Of a DNA stretch of 64,000 bases, positions 4,096 through 24,094 are shown in pieces. Both the position numbers and the translations under genes were made by a program. The notes beneath the pieces are model-generated. The model was not told where the DNA came from. It did no database searches and saw only the letters and a program-made list of their open reading frames with translations. Source of the DNA: Actinomycetota bacterium (GTDB lineage Bacteria; Actinomycetota; Actinomycetes; Streptosporangiales; Streptosporangiaceae); NCBI GenBank assembly GCA_027313705.1, contig DAHVDE010000067.1, forward strand, positions 62,001 to 126,000, read 5' to 3'. Numbering within the stretch: the stretch's first letter is position 1; every line of letters starts with the position of its first letter.

Positions 4096-4146
4096 ACGGA
4101 GAATCACCGCATCGTGGCTGAGCGGATATTCGCTGGCTGAACGACC

Positions 4147-4177
4147 GGCGGGCGACTAGGGTGGCGGGCGACTAGGG
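4147..4177. repeat. Two-copy tandem repeat, period 16
   Basis: The 15-mer GGCGGGCGACTAGGG occurs at 4147-4161 and again at 4163-4177, separated by one T. It lies between the helicase stop and the methylase start. It is one of several intergenic tandem repeats with a 16-bp period in this window. Confidence 0.9.
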
Positions 4178-4220
4178 CGGTCAAGCTGAGGAGAGACCAT
4201 GGGCGTGGTCATGTTCTTCC

Positions 4221-4991: not shown

Positions 4992-5948
4992 GGCAACGGC
5001 GGCGTCGCCTAGCTCAAGCTCGTGCTGCAGGTTGTCCCTGCCGTGCCCTTGGACAACGTCAAGCAGCAGCAACGGCCTGCCGACCACCCTTGCCTCGGTA
5101 CAAGTATCACCGGAACTGGTAATGACCAGGTCAGATGCCGCCATCAGCTCGGGAATCCGGTGCGAGAACCCGAATGGGTGCACCAGCGGCTGGCGCGCGG
5201 CGACCGCCCGCAGCCGTTGCTCAAGGTGGGTGTTCCTGCCCGCGACGGCCAGCACGTGCACCCCGGCATCGCCGAGCGCCCTGGCGGCCTGGGCGACAGG
5301 GCCAAGTCCCCAGCCTCCAGTGGTCAGCAGCACGCACTTGCCGTCTGCTGGCAGGTCAAGCTGCTGCCTGGCGCTGGACTGGGTCAGCGGCATGAAGAAG
5401 TCATCGCGCACCGGAGGCGGTACCACCAGGACCCGCGCCTGCGGCGCGAACCTCCTGACCGCGCGCTCGGCCACCTCGGAGGTGACCAGATAGAGATCTA
5501 CGTGCGAGTGCACCCACAGGCGGTGCGGCGTGGCATCGGTGCACAGCACGACGTGCCTGGTGCCCGGGTACCTGCCTGCCAGGGCGCTCATCGCAGAAGC
5601 ACCCGTCGCGAATACGGAAATGACCAGTTCAGCTGGGTTAGCGTCCAGGTGAGCGCGCAGCCTGGGCACGATCTGGCTCCTGGCCGCGGCATCGGCCAGC
5701 CAGGCCAGCCGGTTGCCCTCGCGCAACGCCGCGAAGTGAAAGGCGTCGTAAAGCCCTGGCAACGACAGCATGGTGCGGAAGACCTTGCTGCCGACCGAGT
5801 CGGCACCGCGGCCGAGCAGCTTCATCAGGTCCAGTTTCTCCGTCGACCAGCCTTGCGCCCGCAGTGCCGCCGAGCACGCCGCAGCCAGTTGATCGTGGCC
5901 AAGGCCGATCGACCCCGACAGCATGACGGCGTGCCTGCGTAGGCTCAT
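4854..5948 (-). CDS. GT28/MGDG-synthase-like glycosyltransferase
   Basis: 364-residue GT-B glycosyltransferase related to monogalactosyldiacylglycerol and processive diacylglycerol glucosyltransferases, which transfer sugar from a UDP-sugar to a lipid. The N-terminal GSIGLGHDQLAAAC matches the SxGxGH acceptor-binding loop of the family. The C-terminal half has LLTTGGWGLGP and a donor-site region MAASDLVITSSGDTCTEAR. No membrane helix is seen, consistent with peripheral membrane association. Its 3' end overlaps the tail of the convergent methylase. The polysaccharide deacetylase is divergent on the other side. Exact lipid and sugar cannot be told from sequence. Confidence 0.85.
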   Translation of the reverse strand: MSLRRHAVMLSGSIGLGHDQLAAACSAALRAQGWSTEKLDLMKLLGRGADSVGSKVFRTMLSLPGLYDAFHFAALREGNRLAWLADAAARSQIVPRLRAHLDANPAELVISVFATGASAMSALAGRYPGTRHVVLCTDATPHRLWVHSHVDLYLVTSEVAERAVRRFAPQARVLVVPPPVRDDFFMPLTQSSARQQLDLPADGKCVLLTTGGWGLGPVAQAARALGDAGVHVLAVAGRNTHLEQRLRAVAARQPLVHPFGFSHRIPELMAASDLVITSSGDTCTEARVVGRPLLLLDVVQGHGRDNLQHELELGDAAVASGRAGDVVMATLSALDNAKPPSAGPARSPGGWHSALTAALATIGL

Positions 5949-6033
5949 GACAGGGTTACCTGCCCCGCCAGTCAGACATCATGCGTCACAGGTGCCTGGT
6001 CAGGGTCATGCCTGGCCGGCCGCCCATGCCATC

Positions 6034-6792
6034 ATGGCATCGATGACGACCAGGTTGCTCCGACCGCCGCTCGTTACCGCCGCGGCCTTTGCGCTCGCCG
6101 GCGCCGCCGTGTTCCAGGCTGGTCCAGGCGTGACCGGGCTAGGACCGGTGCGCAGGGCCATGTTTCCCGCGCTCCTCGGTACGGGGCACGACGACCATGT
6201 CGCCCTGACCTTCGACGACGGTCCCGATCAGGCCGCTACTCCCTTGTTCGTCGAGGCTCTGGCCAGACGCGGCGTCAAAGCCACCTTTTTCCTGCTCGGC
6301 TCCAGGGTGGCCATGAACCCGCGCCTGGCGGCGGAACTGGTCGCGGCCGGGCACGAGGTCGCGGTGCACGGCTGGGAGCACAGGTTCCTGCCGCTGCGCG
6401 GGCACCTTGCCACCCATGACGACCTGGCCAGGGCGGCGGACACGATCGGGGAAGTGACCGAAGTGGTGCCCCGGCTGTTCCGGCCGCCCTACGGGGTGCT
6501 TAGCACCGGGGCGCTGATGGCAGCGCGCCGGCTGCGGCTGGCAACCGTGCTCTGGGGTTGCTGGGGCAAGGAATGGACGCCCGGCTCGACCGGCCGTTCT
6601 GTGTTTGCCACGCTCAGCGGTGACCTTCGTGGCGGCGTGACTGTGCTGCTGCACGACTCGGACGCTACTGCCCCGGCTGGCAGTGCCAAGGCGGCGCTTG
6701 ACGCGCTCGACCCGCTGTTCGACGAATGCGAACGCCGAGGACTGCGAATAGGCCCGCTCGGCGAGCATGGCTTGCCTCAGCTCGGTCAATGA
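6034..6792 (+). CDS. Polysaccharide deacetylase (NodB domain), membrane-anchored or secreted
   Basis: Carbohydrate esterase family 4 enzyme that removes N- or O-acetyl groups from cell-wall polymers. Motif 1 TFDDGPD gives the catalytic base and metal Asp, motif 2 HGWEH gives two metal His residues, motif 3 RPPYG and motif 5 LLHDSD complete the active site. A hydrophobic N-terminus (VTAAAFALAGAAVFQAG) is a signal peptide or anchor. Longer in-frame starts would overlap the divergent glycosyltransferase, so ATG 6034 is chosen; ATG 6043 is equally possible and neither has a strong ribosome site. 252 residues. Confidence 0.86.
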   Translation: MASMTTRLLRPPLVTAAAFALAGAAVFQAGPGVTGLGPVRRAMFPALLGTGHDDHVALTFDDGPDQAATPLFVEALARRGVKATFFLLGSRVAMNPRLAAELVAAGHEVAVHGWEHRFLPLRGHLATHDDLARAADTIGEVTEVVPRLFRPPYGVLSTGALMAARRLRLATVLWGCWGKEWTPGSTGRSVFATLSGDLRGGVTVLLHDSDATAPAGSAKAALDALDPLFDECERRGLRIGPLGEHGLPQLGQ

Positions 6793-6807
6793 GATGTATC
6801 TTGCTTT

Positions 6808-6850
6808 GACTCCCGATGCCTCTGACTCCCGATGCCTCTGGCTCCCGATG
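6808..6850. repeat. Tandem repeat, 16-bp unit, about 2.7 copies
   Basis: GACTCCCGATGCCTCT is present at 6808-6823 and 6824-6839, followed by a third partial copy with one change (GGCTCCCGATG, 6840-6850). It begins 16 bp after the deacetylase stop codon and lies in otherwise non-coding sequence. Confidence 0.92.
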
Positions 6851-6919
6851 AAATTCGCGTTGCCGCAGGAACGCGCCACGAACTCGGCCCCGGGTGGGGC
6901 TTGCCCTAACCTGGCGGGT

Positions 6920-6976
6920 ATGCGGCTAGTCGTCGAGTTCACCCTGCTGGACTTTGTGGTAGCTATGCTCGGCTAG
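6920..6976 (+). CDS. Possible leaderless micro-ORF, 18 residues
   Basis: ATG at 6920 is preceded by TAACCT (6907-6912) with exactly 7 nt between, the arrangement typical of leaderless actinobacterial genes. The product MRLVVEFTLLDFVVAMLG is hydrophobic and acidic. The stop overlaps the end of the convergent M48 protease gene. No recognisable -35 is present and such short ORFs occur by chance, so this is only a candidate. Confidence 0.25.
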   Translation: MRLVVEFTLLDFVVAMLG

Positions 6977-8004
6977 CTGTCGCCGTCGTCCGAGTCGTCC
7001 CTGCGCCCGAACCTGTTCATCAGCCGCTCGCCCGCGCCTACCGCGGAACCGGCGACCCCGCGCACCGCTCCGATCAGCGGGTCAGCTGAGCGGTTCCACG
7101 AGTCCTGGTAGGACTTGGCCGCCGACTTGAATTCGTCGCCCATCGAAGTGCCGCGGTCCTGGTCGCGCCTCGGGTAGTTCCCGGCCAGGATGTCGGCGTA
7201 GTCGCCGCTCGACGCCCACCGGTCAAGTTCGGCGAACCTGATCACCGCGAACGGGTGCGTGGTGCCCTGAAGCTGCATCAGCTTGATCAGGCTCTCCCGG
7301 ACGTCGGGCACGCCGTCGTACTCGCGCGCCTGCTCGAGGAAGGCGTCCGCGCTCAGTTCGGCGAGCCGCGAGCCGCCCGCTGTCTTCATCAGCGCCCGGC
7401 GCGAGGCGGCAACATCCTGGCAGGCCAGCAAGCCCGCCCGGTCACAAGACAGCTCCGACTTGCGGTACCACTCCTCGAGCCCCCAGATCACGGCCTTGAG
7501 GCCGATCCAGGCGATCGGGATGAGCGCAAGCCTGGTGACCAGGTTGAGCAGGGCAAACAACATGGTCCTGTAGACCGCGTGCCCGGAAAGCACGTGCCCG
7601 AGTTCGTGCCCGATGACGAACCTGAGCTCGTCTTCGTCCATCAGGTCGACCAGGCCGGTCGTGATCACGATGAACGGCTTGTCCGTGCCAAGCGCCATCG
7701 CGTTCACTTCAGGGTTCTGCCAGATGAAAAGTTCGGGTACTCGCGGCAGGTCGAGCACATATGCCCCGTCAAGCATCATCTGGTATACCTGCGGGAACTG
7801 CTGCTCGGACGCACGCACTGAGCTGGCAAGGAAGAGCAGTCGCAGGGCGCGGTCGCTGAACAGGCTGGCGATGTTGCGCAGGATCACATCGAAGCCGGTC
7901 AGCTTCCGCAGCGCGACCAGGGCGGAGCGGTCGGCAGGGTGTTCGTATGCGCGGGAGCTGATGTCCGGCAGACGAACGCGGGAGCGTTCAGGCACAGTGT
8001 TCAT
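6973..8004 (-). CDS. M48-family zinc metallopeptidase
   Basis: Membrane-associated metalloprotease of the M48 (HtpX/Ste24) clan. HELGH (residues 133-137) supplies the two His zinc ligands and the catalytic Glu, and SELSCDRAG about 50 residues later supplies the third ligand. Between them, FALLNLVTRLALIPIAWIGLKAVIWGL looks like membrane helices. The C-terminal part has a Gly/Ala/Ser-rich segment and an acidic tail. ATG at 8004 is preferred to the longer form because the longer form would overlap the divergent ligase start, and because TACCAT (8011-8016 on this strand) lies 6 nt upstream, suggesting a leaderless transcript. 343 residues. Confidence 0.88.
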   Translation of the reverse strand: MNTVPERSRVRLPDISSRAYEHPADRSALVALRKLTGFDVILRNIASLFSDRALRLLFLASSVRASEQQFPQVYQMMLDGAYVLDLPRVPELFIWQNPEVNAMALGTDKPFIVITTGLVDLMDEDELRFVIGHELGHVLSGHAVYRTMLFALLNLVTRLALIPIAWIGLKAVIWGLEEWYRKSELSCDRAGLLACQDVAASRRALMKTAGGSRLAELSADAFLEQAREYDGVPDVRESLIKLMQLQGTTHPFAVIRFAELDRWASSGDYADILAGNYPRRDQDRGTSMGDEFKSAAKSYQDSWNRSADPLIGAVRGVAGSAVGAGERLMNRFGRRDDSDDGDS

Positions 8005-8041
8005 GCCGTCATGGTATGCGCCTCTAGGAAGAGTGGCCGTC

Positions 8042-9403
8042 ATGGTTGAGATATATTTCGAGGCTGATGCCGAGACAATGCCCGCCGAAGGGCGTGCCGT
8101 CCTTCAGGGCGAGCGACTGGCCGGGCTCGTCGGCCGGCTGCTGGCTGCCGGGGGATTGCAGGCACGGCGGCTGAGCGAGGCCGGCGTGACCAGCGGCCGT
8201 GACGTCAGCCTTGCCGGCCTGGCCAAGCTGCCGACGACGAGCAAGCAGGACCTGTGGGATCACTACCCGTTCGGCATGCTCGCCGTGCCGCGCAGCGAGG
8301 TCGTCGCCGTGCACGGCTCGAGCGGCACGGGTGGCCGGCCGACGCTCGTTTCTTATTCACGGGCGGACCTGGCCTTGTGGTCACGGATGTGCGCGCGGGC
8401 GCTGGCGGGCGCGGGCGCCGGTCCTGGCACGATCATCCACAACGCCTACGGCTATGGCCTGTTCACCGGCGGGGTCGGCATTCACCAGGGCGCGATCGCG
8501 CTCGGGGCGACCGTTATCCCCGTGTCTGGCGGGATGACCGCCAGGCAGGTGACGCTGATCCGCGACCTGCGTCCTCGGGTGCTTACCTGCACCCCGTCCT
8601 ACGCGATCAGGCTCGGCGAGGCGCTCGCGGCAGCCGGGCTGACCAGGGAAACCGGCCTTTCACTTGAGGTGGGAGTCTTCGGCGCGGAACCCTGGACCGA
8701 GGAGATGCGGGCCAGGATCGGCGAACTCCTCGGCATCCGTGCCCTTGACATCTACGGCCTCTCCGAGGTCATCGGCCCCGGCGTCGCCTGCGAGTGCGCC
8801 ACCGCGGCGGACGGCCTGCACGTCAACGAAGACCATTTCCTTGCCGAGGCGCTAGATCCGCTGACCGGCGAGCCCGTGCCTTACGGCACGCCTGGTGAGC
8901 TGACGTTCACCACGCTGACCAAGGAGGCGATGCCGCTGCTGCGTTACCGCACCGGCGACATAGCGAGCCTGCGGCCCGGCAATTGCGAATGTGGCCGCAC
9001 GCTGGTGAAAATGTCCAAGGTCACCGGCCGCAAGGATGACATGCTGGTGATCAGGGGGGTCAATGTCTACCCGAGCGAGATAGAGCGGGTCTTGCTGGCC
9101 GAGCTCAAAGTGGCGCCTGATTACCTGCTTGTGGTCGACGAAAGGGGCGACCAGCGCGAGCTGATTGCCTGTTGCGAGCCTCTTTCCGCCAGTAACCTCC
9201 CCGGCTCGGCCGCCGGCGGCCAACTCGACCACGGGGCTGGCCTGGGCGCCGCGCTTCAGGCCAGGCTCCGCGACGCGCTTGGCGTCCGCGTCGGCGTCGC
9301 GCTGCTGCCGCCAGGCACCGTCCCGCGCGCCGAGGCAGGCAAGGCGGTGCGAGTCGCCAGGTGGACGGCCGGCGACCCGCCCGTGCCTGGCCTGTCTCGA
9401 TAG
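8042..9403 (+). CDS. Phenylacetate-CoA ligase-like adenylate-forming enzyme
   Basis: ANL-superfamily acyl-CoA ligase of the PaaK type, which activates aryl or related carboxylic acids to CoA thioesters with ATP. Visible: P-loop-like HGSSGTGGRPTLVSYS, Y-G-L-S-E motif (DIYGLSEVIGPGV), the metal-associated Cys pair in NCECGRTL, TGD in RYRTGDIASLR, and a hinge/C-terminal region with GRKDDMLVIRGVNVYPSEIE. 453 residues. ATG 8042 is chosen because AGGAAGAG (8026-8033) lies 8 nt upstream; longer in-frame starts run antisense to the M48 gene. No paa ring-epoxidase genes are nearby, so the substrate is open. Confidence 0.9.
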   Translation: MVEIYFEADAETMPAEGRAVLQGERLAGLVGRLLAAGGLQARRLSEAGVTSGRDVSLAGLAKLPTTSKQDLWDHYPFGMLAVPRSEVVAVHGSSGTGGRPTLVSYSRADLALWSRMCARALAGAGAGPGTIIHNAYGYGLFTGGVGIHQGAIALGATVIPVSGGMTARQVTLIRDLRPRVLTCTPSYAIRLGEALAAAGLTRETGLSLEVGVFGAEPWTEEMRARIGELLGIRALDIYGLSEVIGPGVACECATAADGLHVNEDHFLAEALDPLTGEPVPYGTPGELTFTTLTKEAMPLLRYRTGDIASLRPGNCECGRTLVKMSKVTGRKDDMLVIRGVNVYPSEIERVLLAELKVAPDYLLVVDERGDQRELIACCEPLSASNLPGSAAGGQLDHGAGLGAALQARLRDALGVRVGVALLPPGTVPRAEAGKAVRVARWTAGDPPVPGLSR

Positions 9404-9413
9404 GGTTCCCGGC

Positions 9414-10046
9414 ATGAGCGAGCAGGTGTCGGGGCATTCCGGGGTTCGCGCTGGTCCTTCCGCCAGGCGAATCGGCGTGATGGGCGGGACGTTTGATCCG
9501 GTTCATCATGGGCATCTGGCTGCGGCCAATGAGGCCGGGCACGCGTTCGGCCTTGACGAGGTGGTGTTTGTCCCTGCGGGGCAGCCGTGGCAGAAAAGCG
9601 AGCGCAAGCTCGCGGCCGCGGAAGACAGGTACCTGATGACGGCCATTGCGACCGCCTCGAATCCGAGGTTCTCCGTGAGCCGGATCGAGATCGACCGGCC
9701 AGGTGATACGTACTCCATTGACACGGCACGGGCGCTGCGGTCGGCTTTCGGCGCCGATGCCGAGATCTTCTTCATTGTCGGTGCCGATGCGCTGAGCCGG
9801 CTTGATACCTGGCGTGACCCGCAAGAACTGCTGACGCTGGTGCGATTCATCGGCCTTACCAGGCGGGGGCATCAAATCGCGGTGAACAGCCTGGACGCCG
9901 GCCAGTTCAGCCTGCTCGAGATGCCCGCGCTCGAGATCTCCTCGACCGTATTGCGGGCGAGAGTCAAGGCTGGCTTGCCGATTTCCTATCTCGTGCCTGA
10001 GGGCGTTGTCCAGTACATTGCGAAGCGAGGGCTGTACCGCGATTAG
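9414..10046 (+). CDS. nadD: Nicotinate-nucleotide adenylyltransferase
   Basis: NAD biosynthesis: converts nicotinate mononucleotide and ATP to deamido-NAD. The nucleotidyltransferase signature GGTFDPVHHGH lies near residues 24-34, and ISSTVLRARV is the C-terminal ISSTxIR motif that binds ATP phosphates; 210 residues. ATG 9414 is followed by an unconserved leader of about 20 residues. TAGGGT at 9401-9406 (its TAG is also the stop of the preceding ligase) sits 7 nt before the ATG, so a leaderless start is possible. In many actinobacteria rsfS follows at once; here an ABC transporter pair intervenes. Confidence 0.95.
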   Translation: MSEQVSGHSGVRAGPSARRIGVMGGTFDPVHHGHLAAANEAGHAFGLDEVVFVPAGQPWQKSERKLAAAEDRYLMTAIATASNPRFSVSRIEIDRPGDTYSIDTARALRSAFGADAEIFFIVGADALSRLDTWRDPQELLTLVRFIGLTRRGHQIAVNSLDAGQFSLLEMPALEISSTVLRARVKAGLPISYLVPEGVVQYIAKRGLYRD

Positions 10047-12702: not shown

Positions 12703-12831
12703 GGTGCCCTGCCCAGTCGCTGCAAAGGATTGCAGGACATTCACCTCAGGTCCGTTGTCATATTCTTGTCAGGTTTCTCGGCAAGCTGGAAAGCTGTGCA
12801 AAGTCTGACCTGCGCGGATCATCGTGACCCA

Positions 12832-12863
12832 GGTAAATTGATACGGGTAAATTGCCGATCGGC
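12832..12863. promoter_or_regulatory. Direct repeats and palindrome upstream of the 164-residue ORF
   Basis: GGTAAATTG occurs at 12832-12840 and 12846-12854 (period 14), followed by the palindrome GCCGATCGGC at 12854-12863. They lie 35-65 nt before the next start codon in an unusually AT-rich stretch and may be a regulator site. The remainder of 12667-12898 shows no gene. Confidence 0.35.
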
Positions 12864-12898
12864 AAGTCAGGATCGGCGTCATAGCGACAGGGGAAATT

Positions 12899-13393
12899 GT
12901 GATCGGTAATGAACATTTCGATCATTTAATAGCATCTGCTCCGGTCAACTTTGACGTGGCGGAAATGCGCTGGGCAGGGCTGGCTCAGTTGCTGGCTCAA
13001 GTCGGCATCAGCTCGTCGACCATAGTCGCGGTCAGCTGGTGCAGCGTCGGGCTTGGGGATATCGAGGCGCTCACCGACGAGCCTGGCCTCACCATGATTC
13101 ACCGCCACGGCGTGCTCAGCTCGGCGGGTCGTCTTAAGCCGGGCGGCGCCGGGGTGGAGCACTATGCGATCGACTTCCGCCAGTGCCGTCGCATCGCCGG
13201 CGTCGACACCAGCGACGGGCACGGATTCGGCAAGTACTGCATCGAGTTCCTCGGCTCAGGCGGTGTCCTGGTCGGCCGGCTGCAGTGGAGCTGGTGGACC
13301 AGGTTGTTCTGGCGCCCCCGTGCCAGGATCACCGCTGCCGAATCGGAACGTGACCGGATACTGAACGTCATCAAGGCCCTGGTGCCGTTATGA
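12899..13393 (+). CDS. Protein of unknown function, 164 residues
   Basis: Not recognised. The protein has an N-terminal helical part (EMRWAGLAQLLAQVGISSSTIVAV) and a beta-rich remainder ending in LVGRLQWSWWTRLFWRPRAR followed by a helix. This order resembles bacterial PH-like domains used to judge membrane or lipid contact, but that is only a guess. GTG 12899 follows CAGGGGAAATT, a usable ribosome site. Third-position GC is high throughout, which supports coding. It is isolated between the phosphatase and a terminator. Confidence 0.6.
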   Translation: MIGNEHFDHLIASAPVNFDVAEMRWAGLAQLLAQVGISSSTIVAVSWCSVGLGDIEALTDEPGLTMIHRHGVLSSAGRLKPGGAGVEHYAIDFRQCRRIAGVDTSDGHGFGKYCIEFLGSGGVLVGRLQWSWWTRLFWRPRARITAAESERDRILNVIKALVPL

Positions 13394-13398
13394 GGCTG

Positions 13399-13449
13399 CC
13401 GGCAGGCCAGGCCCGGGGAGCCCGCCGCCCCCCGGCCCTGGCCTGCCGG
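13399..13449. terminator. Bidirectional terminator hairpin
   Basis: CCGGCAGGCCAGG (13399-13411) pairs with CCTGGCCTGCCGG (13437-13449), giving a 13-bp perfect stem, with further GC pairing inside the loop. It sits between two convergent genes and would serve both. No T-tract, as is common in high-GC genomes. Confidence 0.72.
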
Positions 13450-13461
13450 CCCGGTGGCCGG

Positions 13462-14946
13462 TTACTCCACCAGGTCGTCAACTGGCTTCACGCCGGCCGT
13501 TCCCCGGCGCAGTCTCCGCAGCAGCCCGCCGAAGTACCAGAGCGCGGCGAGGATCGCGCCGTAGCCGAGCACCTTGTCGGCGCCGTGGAACGCGGCGGGC
13601 AGCGAGAGCACGAGCATGATCAGGAACGTGTAGGCCAGGACGAACCCGATGACGGGCCAGGCCCAGCGGCCGAGCGTGAAGGCACCGGGGATGGCATCGG
13701 CGGCACGGCGCTTGACCGCGTAGGCGATGGTGATCAGGAAGTAGATGATGTAAGGGATGATCGCGGTGGCGCCGACGAGCGTGCCGAAGGCACTGGCCTG
13801 AAGGTAGCCGTACCACATGACGGCGAGGTCGATGACGCCGAAGACCAGCAGGGCGATGACCGGGGTCTGGCTCCTCGGGTTGACCCGCCGCAGCCACTTG
13901 CTGAACGGCACCATGTTGTCCCGCGCGAGTGAGTAGCACAACCTTGCCTGGGCGCCTGAGCCGACGACCAGGATCGCGAACATCGAGAACACCACGAACG
14001 CGATGAAGACCTTGACCAGCCATCCGGGCAGCCAGTAGCTGGCGATGGTCAGCAAGGGCAGCGGGGAGCTCTCCACCGACTTCAGGCTGGGGATCGCGAC
14101 GGTGAAGCCGATGAGCGCGACCATGCCGAGTACCGCCGAGAGGAAGACGGCCCAGATGACGCCGCGCGGGACGCTGCGCACCGGGTTGACGGCGTCCTCG
14201 GACATGTCGGCGGCCAGTTCGAACCCGACCAGGGTGAACGCGCCGAGCAGTCCGGCAAGCGCGAACGCGTACCAGGTCGGGTTGTGCACGATCGAGGTGG
14301 TGCTGGTCAGGATGCTGCCGCCGTAGGGCGTCGGCTTGGCGTGCAAGCCCCACAAGACAAGCAGCAGCACGCCGAACACCACGGTGCCGATGATCTCGGT
14401 GAACACGGCGACGTTGTTGACCCTGGCGGCGACCTGGATGCTGATGATGTTGATCACCACGGGCAGCAGCATCAAGATGACCGCGACGGACAAGACCAGC
14501 CGCGGGCTCGGCGTGCTGATGCCGAACTCGCTGAGCAGCAGTGGCGAGGCGACTTCGAGCATGATCGCCCCGCCGCCGACCGCCATGTAAAGAAGTCCGG
14601 CGAAGCCGACGAACCAGCCGTAGGTCGGGTTCACCAGCCGGGCGCTCCACTGATAGGCGTAGCCGGCCAGCGGGATCCTGGTGCCAAGCTCGGCGACCAC
14701 CAGCGCGATGGCCAGGTTGCCCACGCCGACGATCGGCCAGGTCCAGATCGAGGCCGGGCCCCAGTTGGTCAGGCCGAAACTGTAGTTGAGGAAAATCCCA
14801 GTGGTAATGGAGATGATCGAGAACGCGATCGCGAACATCGAGAAGAACTTCAGCGATCGCCGCAGCTCAGGCTGGTAGCCGGCGCGTTCGACCAGGGCGT
14901 CGGCCGAGTCGGCCGAGCGTGCCGGATCATCTAGGGTGCTGGACAT
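13462..14946 (-). CDS. APC-family amino acid/amine permease
   Basis: 494-residue, roughly 12-helix transporter of the amino acid-polyamine-organocation superfamily. The first helix carries FSIISITTGIF, the unwound substrate-binding segment typical of APC proteins, and a long soluble N-terminus precedes it. It is the last gene of a four-gene operon, 15 nt after the aminotransferase. Import of an amino compound fits with a transaminase, kinase and aldolase acting next. The specific substrate is not predictable. Confidence 0.9.
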   Translation of the reverse strand: MSSTLDDPARSADSADALVERAGYQPELRRSLKFFSMFAIAFSIISITTGIFLNYSFGLTNWGPASIWTWPIVGVGNLAIALVVAELGTRIPLAGYAYQWSARLVNPTYGWFVGFAGLLYMAVGGGAIMLEVASPLLLSEFGISTPSPRLVLSVAVILMLLPVVINIISIQVAARVNNVAVFTEIIGTVVFGVLLLVLWGLHAKPTPYGGSILTSTTSIVHNPTWYAFALAGLLGAFTLVGFELAADMSEDAVNPVRSVPRGVIWAVFLSAVLGMVALIGFTVAIPSLKSVESSPLPLLTIASYWLPGWLVKVFIAFVVFSMFAILVVGSGAQARLCYSLARDNMVPFSKWLRRVNPRSQTPVIALLVFGVIDLAVMWYGYLQASAFGTLVGATAIIPYIIYFLITIAYAVKRRAADAIPGAFTLGRWAWPVIGFVLAYTFLIMLVLSLPAAFHGADKVLGYGAILAALWYFGGLLRRLRRGTAGVKPVDDLVE

Positions 14947-14961
14947 TACACCGTTCCTTTA

Positions 14962-16197
14962 CTATCCAAGGTGCTTGCGCACGGCTGCGAATGCCTCGTC
15001 TGCGGCCGCTAGCGCGGCCGCCACGTCGTCGTCGGTCATCGCTGCCGAGACGAACCAGTTGTGCCTGGGATGCAGGTACGCCCCGCGCTCGAGTGCGCGC
15101 GCGGCGAACAACCTGCCGAGCGTGTAGTCCTCGTCGCCCGCGAACGTCAGGTAGGGCATCTGCACCGGGCCGGTGTAGTTGATTTCCAGCCCCCAGGACG
15201 CGGCCTGGGCCACGATGCCGTCACGCAGCGCCGTGCCCGCCCGCTCCATTGCCTCGATGCCGCCCTCCTCTCGAAGTGCATTGATCGTCGCTATCCCTGC
15301 GGCCATCGGCACCGCAGCGAACCAGAAAGACCCGGTTACGTAGATCTCGCTGGCCCCGGCGCGGAACGCCTCGCTGCCGAGCACGGCGGCCAGGGGGTAA
15401 CCGTTGGCGATGGCCTTGCTCCACGCGGATAGGTCGGGGTCGACGCCGATCGGCTCCCAGCTCGACCCGAGCGCCATCCGGAACCCGCAGCGGACGTCGT
15501 CGAGGATCAGCGCCGCTCCGGTCGCGTCGCACAGTTCGCGCAGCCCGCGCGCGAACGCGGGATCGACAAGCTCCTGGTCGATCCCGGCATCGTGCTTGAA
15601 CGGAGAAACCACGATGGCCGCGAGGTCAGAGCCGGCTTCCTCGACCGCGGCCCGCGCGCTGGCCAGGTCGTTGAAGGTGTAGTGGCCAAGGTTGACGCGG
15701 TCAGCCTCCGTCACCCCGGCCGGCCTTGGCGTGCACCAGGGCAGCGCCCCGTGATAGGCGCCGTGCGCGACGAGGATCCGGTTCCTGCCGGTGGCAGCTC
15801 GCGCGATCGTGCAGCACATCGTCGTGGCGTCCGTGCCGTTCTTGGCGAACATGGCCCAGTCGGCGTGCCTGACCGTCGCCACGAAGAGCTCGGCAAGCTC
15901 GACCATCGCCGGCGCGGGCCCGTTCTGGCAGTCGGCAAGCGCCGCCTGCGCTCGCGCCGCTTCCTCGACCCTGGGGTGCTGGTGACCGAGTACGACGGGA
16001 CCGTAACTGCACATCAGGTCGACGTAGGAGTTCCCGTCAGCGTCCCAGACGCGCGCGCCCTTCCCGCCGGCCATGAACTGCGGGTACTGGGCCGGAAGCG
16101 GGTTAGCCGACTGATGCCCGTACATGCCGCCCGGAATGACCGCGGCGGCCCGGCGGCGCAATTCCCCGTCTGCGGTCCTGTTGCGTGCGTCAGTCAT
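14962..16197 (-). CDS. Class III PLP aminotransferase (glutamate-1-semialdehyde aminomutase-like)
   Basis: 411-residue fold-type I PLP enzyme. MCSYGPVVLGHQHP and FAKNGTDATT are characteristic of the GSA-aminomutase branch, ILDDVRCGFR holds the PLP-binding Asp, and SAWSKAIANGYPLAAVLG holds the Schiff-base Lys. It starts with ATG 16197, overlapping the kinase stop by 4 nt (ATGA). Because it sits between an amine permease and a sugar kinase plus aldolase, it more likely deaminates an imported amino compound than makes haem precursors; no other 5-aminolevulinate gene is beside it. Confidence 0.9.
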   Translation of the reverse strand: MTDARNRTADGELRRRAAAVIPGGMYGHQSANPLPAQYPQFMAGGKGARVWDADGNSYVDLMCSYGPVVLGHQHPRVEEAARAQAALADCQNGPAPAMVELAELFVATVRHADWAMFAKNGTDATTMCCTIARAATGRNRILVAHGAYHGALPWCTPRPAGVTEADRVNLGHYTFNDLASARAAVEEAGSDLAAIVVSPFKHDAGIDQELVDPAFARGLRELCDATGAALILDDVRCGFRMALGSSWEPIGVDPDLSAWSKAIANGYPLAAVLGSEAFRAGASEIYVTGSFWFAAVPMAAGIATINALREEGGIEAMERAGTALRDGIVAQAASWGLEINYTGPVQMPYLTFAGDEDYTLGRLFAARALERGAYLHPRHNWFVSAAMTDDDVAAALAAADEAFAAVRKHLG

Positions 16198-17198
16198 ACG
16201 GTGCTCCTTTGCTGATCCCGTGGCAGAAGTGAGGTGATTCGCCGGGCGGTGGCGGGTGCCGCCGAGCGCAGGAGGTCAATGGCCTGATCCAGGCCGGTCA
16301 GCCCGGCGTCAGAACCGAGCCCGGTGGCGACGAGCGATCCGCAGGCGATACCGAGCGCTGCCGCGTCCACCGGGCCGGTCTCGAGCAGCAGCCCGGTGAT
16401 CAGGCCGGCGTTGAACGCGTCACCGCAGCCGGTGGTGTCCACGACATCGACGGGAATGGCACGCAAGTGCACGGGGTCATTGCCCGGCCAGGCCACCAGG
16501 CAGCCGTCCGCCCCGAGCGTCACCGCCACCCCGTCAGCGCCGAGATTCAAGATCTTCTTTATCCCCGAATAGACATCGAGCGTGCCGGTGAGCGCGCACA
16601 GCTGCTCGGCGTTGGGCAGGAACCAGTCGGTCGTCCCGAGCAGCGCGGCGAGCCGGTCCAGGTCAGATGCGTGTCCTGGATGGAGGACGTCGACCGCGAC
16701 GAGCGCGCCGCCGCCCTTTGCGGCGGCGACGACGTCAGGCAGCCCTCGGCCGGTGAAGTCGCCGAGCGCGTCAGGGGCGCCGATCATCACCGCGCGGGCG
16801 CCGGCCACCAGGTCCAGGTCGACGTCGTCCGGGGTGAGGAACCTGGTAGCTCCAGGCACATGCAGCGCAGGACGTTCGCCGTTCGGCCTGATCGGCAAGA
16901 TCGTGGCCGAGGTCTGCACGCCGCTTTTGCGTGCCAGGCCGCTGGTGTCTATGCCATGCCGCCGCATCGCCTCGGTGAGCAGGTCGCCGAGCAGGTCGTC
17001 GCCTATGGCCCCGATCGTGACCACGTCAGCGCCGAGCTTGGCCAGGTCAACGGCCGTCCCCGCCGCCGTCCCCGCCGCCGTGGCCTTGATCTGGCTGAGC
17101 CTGGCGCTGCCCTGGCCAGGCGGTATCTCTTCCACCGGCCAGCCGAGCACGTCGAGTATGTGGGCGCCGATCGTGACGACCCGGCCGATCCCGCTCAA
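16194..17198 (-). CDS. PfkB-family carbohydrate kinase
   Basis: Ribokinase-like kinase that phosphorylates a sugar or sugar-like alcohol. GAHILDVLGWP begins the fold, AGTAAGTAVDLAKLGADV is the substrate-side motif, and VDTTGCGDAFNAGLI is PfkB signature 2 with the catalytic Asp. Start is TTG 17198: AAGGAG lies 6 nt upstream and the TTG overlaps the aldolase stop as TTGA. Longer in-frame readings run antisense-free through the aldolase gene and lack homology. 334 residues. Member of the four-gene operon. Confidence 0.9.
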   Translation of the reverse strand: MSGIGRVVTIGAHILDVLGWPVEEIPPGQGSARLSQIKATAAGTAAGTAVDLAKLGADVVTIGAIGDDLLGDLLTEAMRRHGIDTSGLARKSGVQTSATILPIRPNGERPALHVPGATRFLTPDDVDLDLVAGARAVMIGAPDALGDFTGRGLPDVVAAAKGGGALVAVDVLHPGHASDLDRLAALLGTTDWFLPNAEQLCALTGTLDVYSGIKKILNLGADGVAVTLGADGCLVAWPGNDPVHLRAIPVDVVDTTGCGDAFNAGLITGLLLETGPVDAAALGIACGSLVATGLGSDAGLTGLDQAIDLLRSAAPATARRITSLLPRDQQRSTV

Positions 17199-17872
17199 GA
17201 GGAGCTCCTTGAGCGCCGGCGGGTGCCGTAGCCCAGGCGCCTGGCCTGCGCGCTCACCTCGGCGAGTTCCGCGGCGGAAAGGATGCGCGGCTCGCCGTAG
17301 CACAACGCGCGCCGGTAAACCCCGGCCAGCCACTCGAGCAGCAGCGCGTTCTCATAGGCACGGGCCAGGGTGCGACCGCAGGTGACGGCCCCGTGATTGC
17401 GCAAGATCGCCGCCTGCCGCCCGTCAAGCGCGCCGATCGCGGCGCTGGCCAGGCCGTCGGAACCGAACCGCGCGTACGGGGCGACTCGAACCGGCCCGCC
17501 AAGGCTCGTGATCGCGTAGTGAATCGCGGGCAGTTCGTCGCGGACCGTCGACAGGGCGATGACCTCGGGGGAGTGCGTGTGCACGACCGCCCCCGAGTTA
17601 GTCGCCGCGTAGATCGCCAGGTGCATCGGGGTCTCAGACGACGGGGCCTCTGGCGAGGAAACCTCGGTGCCGTCGAGCGCGATCACCGCGATGTCAGCGG
17701 CGCTCAGCTCGTGGTAGCTGATCCCCGACGGGGTGATGGCCACGAGGTCTCCGCAGCGCACGCTGAGGTTGCCTGCGCTCCCGACGGCTAGTCCGTCCGC
17801 GAGCAGGCGTGCGCTGAACGCGACGAGCTGCTCGCGAGCGGCGTGCAGATCGGCGGCATCGAGGTCATACAC
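17195..17872 (-). CDS. Class II aldolase/adducin family protein
   Basis: Zn-dependent aldolase of the fuculose-phosphate/ribulose-5-phosphate epimerase family. GSAGNLSVR and ITPSG form the phosphate loop, SSETPMHLAIY includes the catalytic Glu, HTHSPEV gives two zinc His ligands, and LRNHG gives the third. 225 residues, ending in a basic serine tail. It is the first gene of the operon and its start is 18 nt from a palindromic operator. With the kinase it would cleave a phosphorylated ketose into two small fragments. Confidence 0.9.
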   Translation of the reverse strand: MYDLDAADLHAAREQLVAFSARLLADGLAVGSAGNLSVRCGDLVAITPSGISYHELSAADIAVIALDGTEVSSPEAPSSETPMHLAIYAATNSGAVVHTHSPEVIALSTVRDELPAIHYAITSLGGPVRVAPYARFGSDGLASAAIGALDGRQAAILRNHGAVTCGRTLARAYENALLLEWLAGVYRRALCYGEPRILSAAELAEVSAQARRLGYGTRRRSRSSS

Positions 17873-17944: not shown

Positions 17945-18005
17945 TGCCGCTGGTCACGGCTAGGGCACCCATGGGGGCGTGCCCTAGCCGTGCGGGCAGG
18001 GAGCC

Positions 18006-18864: not shown

Positions 18865-20622
18865 ATGGCTGAGGCATATATCACCGGCACCGGCGCTTAC
18901 CTGCCTGGTGACCCGGTAAGCAACGAGGAACTCGCGGTCAGGTTCGGCGACGGCACCAGGCGGGACGAGGCGCTTCACCGGCGTGCGCTGGCCGCTAACG
19001 GGATCAGGACCAGGCATTACGCGACCGATAAGCACGGCAAGAACACGATGCTCAACGAGGAACTCGCGGTTCACGCGGTCAGCAGGGCGCTGGCCGATCG
19101 CGGGCTGCCTGCCACCGAGGTCCGGATGCTGACGGCCGGGACCACGCAAGGCGACCTGCTCGTTCCTGGCTTCGCCTCGATGGTGCACGGCAGGCTCGGC
19201 GGCGGGCCGATGGAGCTGCTTTCCTCGGCAGGGGTGTGCGCCTCCTCGATGGCGGCGCTCAAGGCGGCCGTCTCCGCCGTCCAGCTCGGCCAGCATCGGG
19301 TCGCCGTCGCGGTCGGCTCCGAGCTCGCCAGCAGGTCGTTCTCCGGGGACTGCCCATCTCCGGACACCGCCTTCTTGCGGTGGACGCTCTCTGACGGCGC
19401 GGGCGCGGTAGTGGTGGAGCCGGAGCGAAGGCCAGACGGGCTGAGCTTTCGGGTCGACTGGATGCACCTGGTGTCTTACGCGCACGAGCACGAGGTGTGC
19501 ATGAGCGCGGCGCTGCCGGACGGCGTGACCGTGCCGAGGCTGCGGCAGGACATGTCCGCGCTTTCTGCCCTGGTCGACGTGGGCGTGGCCGAGTACGCCG
19601 CGCTGGTCAGGGCGGGGCGGATTGATCCGGGTACCGAGCATGTGCTCTGCCATTACAGTGCCGGGCACTTCAGGGACAAGCTGATGACCAGGCTGCGCGA
19701 AGCCGGGTTCGAGCCCGATGAAGGCAAATGGTTCACGAACCTGTACACGGCAGGCAACACCGGAGCAGCGAGCGTGTTCGTGCTGCTCGACGCGGCGAAG
19801 CCGCTGCTGCGGCCTGGGGACCGCGTGCTGCTCGTGGTCCCTGAGTCCGGCCGGTTCATGTTCGCGTTCGCGCAGCTCACGTGTGTAGGTCAGGACGGCA
19901 ACCCCAGCCAGGCCGAGTTCGCGGCCTCGCCGCTCGGGCGGCCGCTTGCCGGTGATCCGCCGGCCGCCGTCCGTGCGTTCACCGAACTTGCGGTGGTGTG
20001 GTCGGAATTCGAGCGGGAGCTTGCCCGCGTCCCTGTGGTGCGGCGGATCGAGGAAGGCAGCGCGACCGCGGGCGACTACCACAGGCTGCTGCGTAACCTG
20101 CGCCAGCAGGTCGTGGACGGCGGCCGGTGGATCTCGCTGGCGGCCGCCAGTTTCTCTGCCGGACTGTTCTGGCTGCGCAGCGCGGCGATCGAGCACGCCG
20201 CCGCCGAGCACCGCGACTACCAGTTGCTCGAGCAGGACTACCTGTCGGCGGGTGGCGACAAGGAAACCATCGCCACGACACCACAGAACATCGGCACGGC
20301 GGCGCTGTCGGCTTTCATGTTCTACCGGGCAGGCCAGCCCGACCCGGTCGACCTGCTCGGCGCGATGTTCATCATCGAAGGCCTCGGCGTGCGCAAGGCC
20401 GGGTTCTGGGCGGACCGGCTGCGTGACAGTGCCGGCCTGCGTGCTGATCAGCTGAAGTTCCTGCGCTACCACAGCGAGGGCGATGAGGAGCACTTCGCGA
20501 TCCTGGCCGCCGCGCTGCGGTCTGGCCTGCTCGACGACGCCGCGGTCAGTCAGGTCGTCAGGACCGCACGGGTCGTGGCCAGGCTGTACGCGCTGCAACT
20601 CGAGGAGCTTGACCATGTCTGA
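18865..20622 (+). CDS. KAS III-type ketosynthase fused to a haem-oxygenase-like (HDO) iron enzyme
   Basis: 585-residue two-domain fusion. Residues 1 to about 340 are a thiolase-fold ketosynthase of the KAS III/StlD-DarB type with the Cys-His-Asn set: Cys125 in SSAGVCASSMAAL, His263 in CHYSAGHF, Asn298 in YTAGNTGAAS. Residues about 375-585 are all-helical and match the PqqC/TENA/CADD-like iron-containing redox family; IEHAAAEHRDY and RYHSEGDEEHF are candidate metal-ligand helices. HDO relatives include UndA (alkene formation) and other di-iron oxidases. A condensing enzyme tied to an oxygenase suggests acyl chain building then oxidative tailoring. It overlaps the next gene by 8 nt. Confidence 0.85.
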   Translation: MAEAYITGTGAYLPGDPVSNEELAVRFGDGTRRDEALHRRALAANGIRTRHYATDKHGKNTMLNEELAVHAVSRALADRGLPATEVRMLTAGTTQGDLLVPGFASMVHGRLGGGPMELLSSAGVCASSMAALKAAVSAVQLGQHRVAVAVGSELASRSFSGDCPSPDTAFLRWTLSDGAGAVVVEPERRPDGLSFRVDWMHLVSYAHEHEVCMSAALPDGVTVPRLRQDMSALSALVDVGVAEYAALVRAGRIDPGTEHVLCHYSAGHFRDKLMTRLREAGFEPDEGKWFTNLYTAGNTGAASVFVLLDAAKPLLRPGDRVLLVVPESGRFMFAFAQLTCVGQDGNPSQAEFAASPLGRPLAGDPPAAVRAFTELAVVWSEFERELARVPVVRRIEEGSATAGDYHRLLRNLRQQVVDGGRWISLAAASFSAGLFWLRSAAIEHAAAEHRDYQLLEQDYLSAGGDKETIATTPQNIGTAALSAFMFYRAGQPDPVDLLGAMFIIEGLGVRKAGFWADRLRDSAGLRADQLKFLRYHSEGDEEHFAILAAALRSGLLDDAAVSQVVRTARVVARLYALQLEELDHV

Positions 20623-21556
20623 GCTCGCGGCAGACCCGTCCTTGTGGGAGGTCATGGCGGCCGACCCCGCCACTCCTATCGACCCGGCCACCCTCCGCCT
20701 GGTCATCAGTGATCAGCGGCTGGCCAGTCGCGCGCTGCTCTACCCGTGGCTGCGGTCGTGCTCCAGGCTGATCGTCACTGTCATCGTCGCAGGCAAGCGA
20801 CTATGCCCGGTCAGCTTCTCCGCGCACGTGACGATGGACCGGATGTGTCTTTGGTTCCTCAGGCGCTTCGTGGCCCCTGACGCCGTCTACTTGCTGATCA
20901 GGCATTTCATCATCGAGACCAACCTGCTCAATTTCTGCCTGCGCAACACGGGAGTGACCGGGGCCGCGGAAGTGAGCCTGCGCCCGGTATCGCTGGCCGG
21001 GCTCGGCAACGGCGCCGTCATCGAACACGACCTGAACGTGTACCGCACGCTGCTCGCCATCGGCAACTCCGGTGCCGTCCGGCAGGCAACCGCGGCCGGC
21101 CTGGACTTCGGGATGCTGGCCGTGCCTGACATCGACCCGCAGCGGCAGTTCAGGCGCTTGCTTAACCTGGACATCCAGACCGCGCTTTGCCTGATGAACA
21201 TTCCGTTCGCGTTCTGCCTGACAGCGGAGCAGTACCGGCGGGCCGTGCACTCCATGCGGCTTGATGCGTCGCTGCTCGGCATCATCGCCGCCGTTACCGG
21301 GGACAGCACCTTCCTGGCGTGGGCGCCAGGCGCCGCCGGGGCGGTGCGGGTAGACAGCAACGCCGATGTGCCTGCGATGGTCTACGCTCACGCGGTGCGC
21401 TGCGAGTACGTGCACGCCCGGCTCAGCAGGCTGGCCGGCGACGCGGCGGCGGGAGAATATCTGGTGACCAGCGAGTATCGTCTGGACTGTGGAAGCTGTT
21501 GTCGTAGGCGCGCGGGGCAGCCGGCTGGCTCAGCTCATGGTCAGGGAGTTGCTTGA
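20615..21556 (+). CDS. Unknown protein encoded between the KAS-HDO fusion and hemC
   Basis: 313 residues, no family recognised. Largely helical with hydrophobic patches (LIVTVIVAG, YLLIRHFIIETNLLNFCL) but no clear transmembrane helix or signal peptide. Start ATG 20615 follows CGAGGAG and overlaps the fusion gene by 8 nt; the end overlaps hemC by 68 nt in another frame. The last about 25 residues (RRRAGQPAGSAHGQG) look like read-through of the hemC start region. Its tight packing suggests a partner or tailoring enzyme for its neighbours. Confidence 0.68.
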   Translation: MSELAADPSLWEVMAADPATPIDPATLRLVISDQRLASRALLYPWLRSCSRLIVTVIVAGKRLCPVSFSAHVTMDRMCLWFLRRFVAPDAVYLLIRHFIIETNLLNFCLRNTGVTGAAEVSLRPVSLAGLGNGAVIEHDLNVYRTLLAIGNSGAVRQATAAGLDFGMLAVPDIDPQRQFRRLLNLDIQTALCLMNIPFAFCLTAEQYRRAVHSMRLDASLLGIIAAVTGDSTFLAWAPGAAGAVRVDSNADVPAMVYAHAVRCEYVHARLSRLAGDAAAGEYLVTSEYRLDCGSCCRRRAGQPAGSAHGQGVA

Positions 21557-22409
21557 TCATCTCGGCACCTGCCCTGTCGTCGAGTTCAAGGTCAAGGTCG
21601 TGGTGACCGACGGCGACCTTGACCGCAGCACGCCGCTGCGGGAACTTGGCGGCGCGGACAGCGGCGGTGTCTTCACTAACCGGCTTCAGGATGAGCTTTT
21701 TGCTGGCCGGATAGACATTGCCGTTCACTCGCTGAAAGACCTGCCGACGGCGTGTCCAGAAGGTCTTGCCCTTGCGGTGACTCCGCCGCGTGCCGATCCT
21801 CGGGATGCGCTCTGCGGGTCAAGCCTGTCGGCGCTCAGGCCAGGAGCGAGGGTCGGTACCGGGTCAGCTCGCCGAGTCGCCCAGCTCAAGGCGCTGCGGC
21901 CCGACCTGGAAGTGATCCCGCTGCGCGGCAACGTGCCGACCAGGCTCGGCCGGCTGAAGTCCGGCCTCGATGCCGTCGTGCTTGCCGCGTCAGGTCTGCG
22001 CAGGCTGGGGGCGAAGGACAGCGTGGCAGAGTTCCTCGACACCGGAATTTTCCCGCCCTCGCCTGGGCAAGGAGCGCTCGGCGTCCAGGTGAGGGCCGCC
22101 GATAGCGAGCTGCTTTCGATGCTCGACTCCTACGGTGATCCTGACGCTGACGCCGCCGTCAGAGCCGAGCGGGCGCTGCTGGCCAGGCTGCACGGCGGCT
22201 GCTCGGTGCCGGTCGGCGCCTTCGCGGTCAGGGCAGCCGGTGAGCTCAAGCTCAACGCCCAGGTCACCTCGACCGACGGACGGCGGGTAGTCGCCGGCCA
22301 CGTGACCGGCACCGACCCGGACGCGGCGGGCAAGGAACTGGCCTCGATCTTGCTGGCGCGCGGCGCGGAGGAGATACTGCGCGAGGTCCGCGCGCCCGCC
22401 CTTCCCTAG
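21489..22409 (+). CDS. hemC: Hydroxymethylbilane synthase (porphobilinogen deaminase)
   Basis: Joins four porphobilinogens into the linear tetrapyrrole hydroxymethylbilane. All key residues are there: GARGSRLA, catalytic Asp84 in HSLKDLPT, Arg128-Arg129 in GTGSARRVAQ, Arg146 in RGNVPTRL, PPSPGQGALG, and Cys238 in HGGCSVPVG that anchors the dipyrromethane cofactor. 306 residues, normal length. GTG 21489 lies within the end of the preceding gene. Usual neighbours hemA, hemB and hemD are absent, so this is either a displaced housekeeping copy or a copy serving the local operon. Confidence 0.92.
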   Translation: MEAVVVGARGSRLAQLMVRELLDHLGTCPVVEFKVKVVVTDGDLDRSTPLRELGGADSGGVFTNRLQDELFAGRIDIAVHSLKDLPTACPEGLALAVTPPRADPRDALCGSSLSALRPGARVGTGSARRVAQLKALRPDLEVIPLRGNVPTRLGRLKSGLDAVVLAASGLRRLGAKDSVAEFLDTGIFPPSPGQGALGVQVRAADSELLSMLDSYGDPDADAAVRAERALLARLHGGCSVPVGAFAVRAAGELKLNAQVTSTDGRRVVAGHVTGTDPDAAGKELASILLARGAEEILREVRAPALP

Positions 22410-22471: not shown

Positions 22472-24094
22472 ATGGTGGCCGTGCGGTTGACGCGAGGTAC
22501 AAGCGGTAAGACCTTTCTGGCAGGTTCGGCCAGCTTGCTCCTGATCTCCGCCCCCTGGCCCGGAGCAGCCGGGCCGGCCGCAGCCGGTGCGGTGACGGCT
22601 CCGTGTGCCCAGCACGCGCTCCAGGCCGCCATCGACCACGGCGGTGTGCTGGTGTTCAAGGCCGCCTGCAAGCTGAACCTGAGCAGGGAACTGTCCGTTC
22701 CCGCCGGGGACGTGGTGACCATTCGCGGCGGCGGCCGTCAGGTCACGATCGAAGGCGGCAGCACCAGGTATCACCCGCTCAACGTCCTCACCAGGGTTTT
22801 CCTGGTCGCGGGCACGCTGACGCTGGAGAATCTCGCCATCGCCAACGGCGAGGTTGCCGGCAAGAACGCGGCCGGCGGAGCCGGCGGCGCGACGGGCAAC
22901 TCGGGTATCTCGCCCGGGCAGGCGGGCGGCGCGGGCCAGCAGGGATTCCCTGGCGGCAACGGCGGGCCAGGAGAAGGCGGCGGCATTTATGTCGGGCCAG
23001 GCGCGAGTTTGACAGCCAATCACGTGAACTTCAGCGGCGACATCGCCGTCGGCGCGCCAGGGGCGCCTGGCGGGGCCGGCGGCCCTGGCGGTCAGGGCGG
23101 CCCTGCCGTCGGCGGCGCGGCGGGTGACGGCGGAACCGGCGGAGCGGGCGGGCCGGGCGGAACCGGGGGCGCCGCCTACGGCGGTGCCATCTACAACCTC
23201 GGCAAGGTCACTGTCGTCGGCGGCACGTTCAGCGGCGACCAGGCGCTCGGCGGTGCAGGCGGGGTCGGCGGCGAAGGCGGACCTGGCGGTGCGGCCGGCC
23301 AGGTACAGACCGCTGGCACCTTCGGAAACGGCGGCGCAGGCGGAACCGGCGGCGCAGGCGGGATCGGCGGCGCCGCCTACGGCGGTGCCATCTACAGTTC
23401 TGGCAGCCTGCTGGCCGAAGGAAGCCAGTTCAGTAAGAGCGGCGCCTCGGGCGGCGCGGCGGGTACCGGCGGTACCGGGGGCCGCGGCGGGTCAGGCTTC
23501 TGCCCGTCGAGCCCGCCGTCGGACTGCGGCGGCAACTCAGGCGGCAACGGCGGGGACGGCGGCGCAGGAGGTGACGGCGGGGCAGCCGCCGGGGGTGCTG
23601 TCTACGCGACCGCCACCGCGAATCTCGAAGGCACCGGGTTCACCGGCGACAAGGCAGACGGCGGTGCCGCAGGACCGCGCTGCGGGCCGGCCGGTCCCGG
23701 CTGCGGTGGCGCGGGCGGCGCGGGCGGCGGGTTCGCAGCCAGTCACGGCGCACAGGGACGTCAGGGCGCGGAAGGCAGCGCGGGCACGGCGGCTTTCCCC
23801 GTGGCCAATGTCAAGCGGGTAAGCCTGCCACCGGTCATGGTCACGACCAAGAGCCTCGCCAAGGGACGGACGGGCAAGGCGTACCTGATGGTCCTCGCGG
23901 CAAAAGGCGGTATCACGCCGTATAAGTGGGTGGTCAAAGGGCTGCCTAAGGGACTCAGCGCGACGGCGGGCGGCGTTATCCGCGGCAAGCCGGCCAAGGC
24001 GGGATCTTTCCGGCTGACGGCCAGCGTCAGCGACCCGACGGCCACGCAGCGGACCACGGCGAGGGCCACGCTCACGCTGACCGTCGCAAGGTAA
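22472..24094 (+). CDS. Secreted Gly-rich (PGRS-like) beta-helix protein with Ig-like C-terminal domain
   Basis: 540 residues. A signal-like N-terminus (FLAGSASLLLISAPWPGAAG) is followed by a short parallel beta-helix start (DHGGVLVFKAACKLNLS, VVTIRGGGRQVTIEGG), then about 320 residues of GGAGG/GGxGG repeats interrupted by the recurring phrase AAYGGAIYNLG / AAYGGAIYSSG / GGAVYATAT. The last 85 residues resemble a putative Ig (He_PIG) domain: GGITPYKWVVKGLPKGLSAT. The pattern recalls mycobacterial PE_PGRS arrays without a PE domain. Likely an exported or wall-bound surface protein. The 3' end overlaps the convergent MFS gene by 23 nt. Confidence 0.78.
   Translation: MVAVRLTRGTSGKTFLAGSASLLLISAPWPGAAGPAAAGAVTAPCAQHALQAAIDHGGVLVFKAACKLNLSRELSVPAGDVVTIRGGGRQVTIEGGSTRYHPLNVLTRVFLVAGTLTLENLAIANGEVAGKNAAGGAGGATGNSGISPGQAGGAGQQGFPGGNGGPGEGGGIYVGPGASLTANHVNFSGDIAVGAPGAPGGAGGPGGQGGPAVGGAAGDGGTGGAGGPGGTGGAAYGGAIYNLGKVTVVGGTFSGDQALGGAGGVGGEGGPGGAAGQVQTAGTFGNGGAGGTGGAGGIGGAAYGGAIYSSGSLLAEGSQFSKSGASGGAAGTGGTGGRGGSGFCPSSPPSDCGGNSGGNGGDGGAGGDGGAAAGGAVYATATANLEGTGFTGDKADGGAAGPRCGPAGPGCGGAGGAGGGFAASHGAQGRQGAEGSAGTAAFPVANVKRVSLPPVMVTTKSLAKGRTGKAYLMVLAAKGGITPYKWVVKGLPKGLSATAGGVIRGKPAKAGSFRLTASVSDPTATQRTTARATLTLTVAR

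Follow-up and report, generated by a model that had tools for sequence, protein, structure and literature searches.

Three overlapping genes lie in a row in the window, by which we mean the whole stretch of 64,000 nucleotides that was analysed (Table 1). The first encodes a ketosynthase (KS) fused to a haem-oxygenase-like (HDO) domain, the second a DUF6999 protein and the third a hydroxymethylbilane synthase (HemC). The first-pass annotation had described these reading frames with an overlap of 8 nt between KS-HDO and DUF6999 and of 68 nt between DUF6999 and hemC, and the ORF coordinates reproduce both overlaps exactly. It had also remarked that hemA, hemB and hemD are missing nearby, and indeed none of them was found within the window. 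The named neighbours of KS-HDO in the window are a TetR gene, DUF6999, HemC, a glycine-rich protein and an MFS gene. The glycine-rich protein is of the secreted type, starts 62 nt past hemC and has no match in Pfam or NCBIfam. Promoter and terminator scans gave results no better than chance.

Table 1. Coordinates of the features discussed, as positions in the window
Feature	Position	Strand	Remarks
Operon: amino-acid permease, class III aminotransferase, PfkB kinase, class II aldolase	13462-17872	-	
Aminotransferase of this operon	14962-16197	-	
Perfect inverted repeat, putative operator	17955-17992		14-nt arms, 10-nt spacer
KS-HDO fusion ORF	18865-20622	+	585 aa
Ketosynthase III domain, StlD/DarB-like (Cys125, His263, Asn298)	18865..19899	+	domain and structure-relative matches
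Place of the missing ketosynthase loop	19500-19530	+	
HDO domain fused to the ketosynthase	19900..20622	+	PF14518 match, conserved residues, predicted model
DUF6999 (PF22523) protein	20615-21556	+	313 aa from ATG at 20615; helical
Second hemC (hydroxymethylbilane synthase paralogue)	21489-22409	+	306 aa, GTG start
Glycine-rich secreted-type protein	22472-24094		540 residues

The operon to the left of these genes looks catabolic. Between its aldolase gene and the divergent TetR gene lies an inverted repeat (CACGGCTAGGGCAC), which is likely to be a TetR operator for the left-hand operon.

Domains of the KS-HDO and DUF6999 proteins

A PDB search identified StlD (5gk0, E=1e-50) as the closest solved relative of the KS domain, and in the alignment Cys125, His263 and Asn298 fall on the Cys, His and Asn motifs of StlD. 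The domain thus has the KAS III fold with its Cys-His-Asn triad; together with the PF14518 match described below, this agrees with the earlier description of a ketosynthase with a full catalytic set fused to an HDO. With StlD and DarB, which belong to stilbene and dialkylresorcinol pathways, it has in common the KAS III-type fold, the three catalytic motifs and an alignment with StlD over the full domain. It differs from them in its fusion to an HDO (in relatives of the window KS, the HDO is either fused or encoded next to it), in the additional DUF6999 partner, and in the lack of a loop of ~20 residues that its KS relatives have. The loop is missing shortly after the motif VCMSA, and the KS of Longispora (L033) is also shorter. 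With 271.5 bits against the StlD/DarB family model NF005293 (cut-off 450) and 242 bits against the DarB model NF053539 (cut-off 550), the window KS stays below both NCBIfam cut-offs, and its reaction may therefore differ. The partners of a dialkylresorcinol (darABC) pathway, the aromatase DarA and the carrier protein DarC, were not found beside the window KS, and no recurrent aromatase or carrier occurs among the module neighbours in 80 relatives.

The C-terminal part of the first gene matches Haem_oxygenas_2 in Pfam (PF14518, E=4.6e-10). Its predicted model (pLDDT 95) has the haem-oxygenase-like seven-helix fold, with 3dde (Z 24.9, rmsd 2.2, 217 residues), CADD (Z 23.6) and UndA (Z 19.4) as the best structural matches. 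Among 28 sequences, including that of Pseudoalteromonas, the residues His99, Glu103, His104, Asp106, Glu160, His191, Asp195 and His198 of the domain are invariant; adding 345 converts these to His444, Glu448, His449, Asp451, Glu505, His536, Asp540 and His543 of the full protein. The usual HDO ligands follow the order E-H-X-H-D/E-H (E-H-X-H-D-H or E-H-X-H-E-H), which applies to about 85% of groups (PMC11363339). Positions three to six of this motif are present in the window protein (Glu505, His536, Asp540, His543), but the first two deviate: the first ligand helix reads H444xxxE448-H449xD451 and offers no carboxylate-then-His pair at helical spacing. A 3H/3C ligand set in reversed order, for example with His444 and Asp451, is possible from these residues, and AetD is another HDO that departs from the usual order (PMC10654658). 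The domain likely binds metal, but because the ligand order of its first helix departs from the usual E-H, binding of two metals is something we only infer. Compared with UndA, CADD, SznF and AetD (PF14518), the fold, the Glu in third position and the H-x3-D-x2-H pattern on the last ligand helix are the same, whereas the His preceding the carboxylates on the first helix (HxxxEHxD), the KS fusion and the DUF6999 partner are different.

These structural matches bear on one alternative for the chemistry of the fusion protein, in which the product of the KS is a beta-keto or beta-hydroxy acid, which the HDO decarboxylates oxidatively, as UndA does fatty acids, to an alkene or enone and not to a ring. 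The match of the model to UndA is in keeping with this, and HDOs are O2-dependent enzymes whose characterised members mainly have fatty or amino acids as substrates (PMC13108848). However, the nearest solved relatives are 3dde and CADD rather than UndA, and the ligand order on the first helix is unlike the E-H motif of UndA, so we rate this route as rather unlikely.

The second protein, listed as unknown in the first-pass annotation, does have a family, since it matches DUF6999 (PF22523) over its full length (E=7e-74, Pfam); as to function the earlier label stands, as none is described for DUF6999 in the literature searched. It is predicted to be mostly helical, and Arg96, His97, Glu101, His138, Asp139, Asp186, Asp217, His259 and Glu264 are invariant among 26 sequences. 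Foldseek returned nothing under E=1, the best VIA-align match was weak (Z 3.2), and a profile search of PDB sequences gave no match up to E=10, but a weak or absent fold match is no proof of a new fold. DUF6999 may be either a lipid-binding partner or an enzyme that has a metal site or an acid-base site.

Distribution of the KS-HDO-DUF6999 module

Scanning 84,980 species genomes with the DUF6999 alignment yielded 91 confirmed loci, 80 of which were kept, all from Actinomycetota. In every one of these 80 named loci, KS, HDO and DUF6999 occur in fixed order, which bears out the pairing of KS-HDO with the then unnamed protein as a conserved unit. KS and HDO share a single reading frame in 35 loci and are separate adjacent genes in the other 45. 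The fused form is found in Streptosporangiaceae, Treboniaceae, Glycomycetaceae and Micromonosporaceae, and the split form in families of the Micrococcales such as Microbacteriaceae, Cellulomonadaceae and Demequinaceae. DUF6999 is rare: it is carried by 4 of 396 genomes drawn evenly from the phylum and by 3 of 60 relatives. Among plasmids, the searches turned up a single DUF6999 record. On a Pseudoalteromonas plasmid (L096), KS, HDO and DUF6999 are three adjacent genes, and the DUF6999 protein scores 322 bits with the Pfam model; Caulobacter vibrioides, from the control list, also carries DUF6999. In the Pseudoalteromonas locus, the gene after DUF6999 (12783-14687) encodes a 634-residue protein with a weak match to an Ig-like domain. 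The only other recurrent neighbours of the module are a NarL-type regulator and a sensor kinase, mainly in Glycomyces, Catellatospora and Trebonia (L018-L078). No account of such a module was found in the literature, which was searched for DUF6999, for the combination of KS and HDO, and for gene clusters containing hemC. The module is thus real, conserved and undescribed in the literature searched.

HemC is no part of this pattern. At none of the 80 loci does it adjoin the module, in flanks of up to 7 kb, so that the trio suggested by the first-pass annotation is ruled out as a conserved operon.

The hemC paralogue and its junction with the module

The HemC of the window is a complete hydroxymethylbilane synthase, as had been proposed: it scores 268 bits with the equivalog model TIGR00212 (cut-off 164), both domains are present, and the active-site Asp84 and the cofactor-site Cys238 are intact. 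The search for a second hemC in the same genome (G000) found the canonical copy on contig C9, with 304 bits and in the context hemA-hemC-hemD-hemB, hemL following further on. The window hemC is therefore an additional paralogue, while the genome has one hemB. At 43% identity to the canonical HemC of its own genome, the window protein has its best matches in 299 genomes of the family at 74, 71 and 68% (G518, G479 and G516), followed by 57% and about 51%. In a tree it falls, unlike canonical HemC, into a 12-row clade of stand-alone paralogues (HemC2; support 100/100), apart from the HemCs with a hemACD context, including that of its own genome.

The neighbourhoods of the HemC2 clade vary, and the closest relatives of the window protein (68-74%) are located elsewhere, some of them next to a divergent second hemB. 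Neither KS-HDO nor DUF6999 was found in the HemC2 loci examined. A divergent HemB is encoded beside HemC2 at three loci (L146, L147, L151). At the first of these (contig C9 of G516, 2029-9419), HemC2 lies within 7.5 kb of divergent HemB-, HemA- and HemL-like genes, possibly a complete second gene set for hydroxymethylbilane. Another deep clade of stand-alone HemCs comprises four loci (L099, L103, L104, L105) from Glycomyces, Phytomonospora, Catellatospora and a Streptosporangiaceae MAG, whose genomes hold KS-HDO-DUF6999 at a separate place. A specialised tetrapyrrole cluster of the tolyporphin type was not recognised in the window, where hemC is the sole duplicated hem gene. The aminotransferase of the left-hand operon was considered as a HemL partner and ruled out: it scores 198 bits where the hemL cut-off is 527, lies on the opposite strand, is 30% HemL-like and is conserved in sister species within the other operon.

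On this basis we can weigh the idea of the first-pass annotation that an acyl unit from KS-HDO is joined to a pyrrole or linear tetrapyrrole from a dedicated HemC. The translational overlap of DUF6999 and hemC is real, hemC is an extra copy with intact active-site residues, and the HemC2 genes beside a divergent HemB (once also with HemA- and HemL-like genes) suggest a specialised tetrapyrrole use elsewhere. Nothing, however, ties the KS-HDO product to a pyrrole: hemC adjacency is zero in 80 loci, the HemC2 loci examined are devoid of the module genes, the source genome has no second hemB, and the set includes no ligase or acyl-carrier gene. We consider such a product very unlikely. It is also improbable, if to a lesser degree, that HemC2 is a supply gene that raises tetrapyrrole flux for a haem demand linked to the module or its regulator. 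The intact HemC fold and residues and the position of hemC at the operon end would suit this role, but HDO metals are non-haem, no haem protein was found in the module, and the modules of relatives manage without hemC.

The flanks give a view of how the arrangement arose. Two sister species, G399 and G397, keep three genes of the left-hand operon (permease, aminotransferase and kinase) in the same order beside the TetR gene, but the module is absent after TetR and unrelated genes are found instead. The right-flank pair of MFS and lipoprotein genes recurs in three genomes of the same genus, and in G399 the pair lies on the same contig as the left flank, ~68 kb away. Since both flanks are native and these relatives lack the module at this position, the segment from KS to HemC is an insertion relative to them. 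DUF6999 proteins elsewhere mostly end ~265-290 residues past the conserved start; in contrast, the window copy extends to residue 313, and its last ~25 residues (289-313) are predicted to form a disordered run-on tail that reads into hemC. The most plausible origin of the 68-nt overlap is that hemC became attached to the 3' end of DUF6999, rather than that the two genes have long overlapped and co-evolved. The arrival of HemC beside the module would then be recent, confined to the lineage of the window and probably incidental. Owing to the same overlap, HemC is likely co-translated, and some functional link may still exist in this lineage.

Alternatively, the hemC junction could be an assembly chimera. 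The genome is a draft of 118 contigs with a contamination estimate of 4.28%, and the junction was seen in no other genome of those compared. However, GC content stays uniform throughout the region, genes of both flanks recur within the genus, the frame of DUF6999 is undamaged where it runs into hemC, and HemC begins with MExVxxGxRGS as in its orthologues. A chimera is thus extremely unlikely.

Proposed chemistry and implications

We hold with high confidence that KS, HDO and DUF6999 form the functional unit and that HemC is a lineage-specific neighbour. The complete explanation, which adds the chemistry proposed here to the module and a separate HemC, is reasonably likely. StlD and DarB form a cyclohexane-1,3-dione by condensing an acyl thioester with a beta-ketoacyl thioester. 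In a similar manner, the KS of the module would take an acyl thioester of fatty-acid metabolism onto Cys125 and join it to a beta-ketoacyl thioester. With its dimetal site and O2, the HDO would then act on the released product by aromatising, hydroxylating or decarboxylating it, and would stand in for the aromatase that dialkylresorcinol pathways have as a separate enzyme. DUF6999 would catalyse a third step or bind the lipid product. HemC probably forms ordinary hydroxymethylbilane and would be co-transcribed solely owing to its insertion at the DUF6999 3' end.

As KS and HDO are fused in 35 of 80 loci, the two are expected to act consecutively, the HDO directly on the KS product. That this product is the HDO substrate is a modestly favoured reading of the gene arrangement. 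Aromatisation, hydroxylation and decarboxylation all fit, and any particular oxidation is doubtful as a specific assignment. A little short of an even chance is what we give the broadest formulation: an undescribed three-enzyme pathway, present in Actinomycetota as well as Pseudomonadota, whose HDO has its first-helix ligands reversed and oxidises what the fused KS makes, and in which DUF6999, with its invariant His, Asp and Glu residues, is a helical enzyme or lipid-binding fold of a new kind.

Setting HemC aside avoids a false lead to acyl-pyrroles. What is left is a compact, widely conserved module of two or three genes which, not being part of a large cluster, is a tractable target. The covalent KS-HDO fusion would directly couple carbon-carbon bond formation to dimetal O2 chemistry, and the module would give the orphan Pfam family DUF6999 a testable function.
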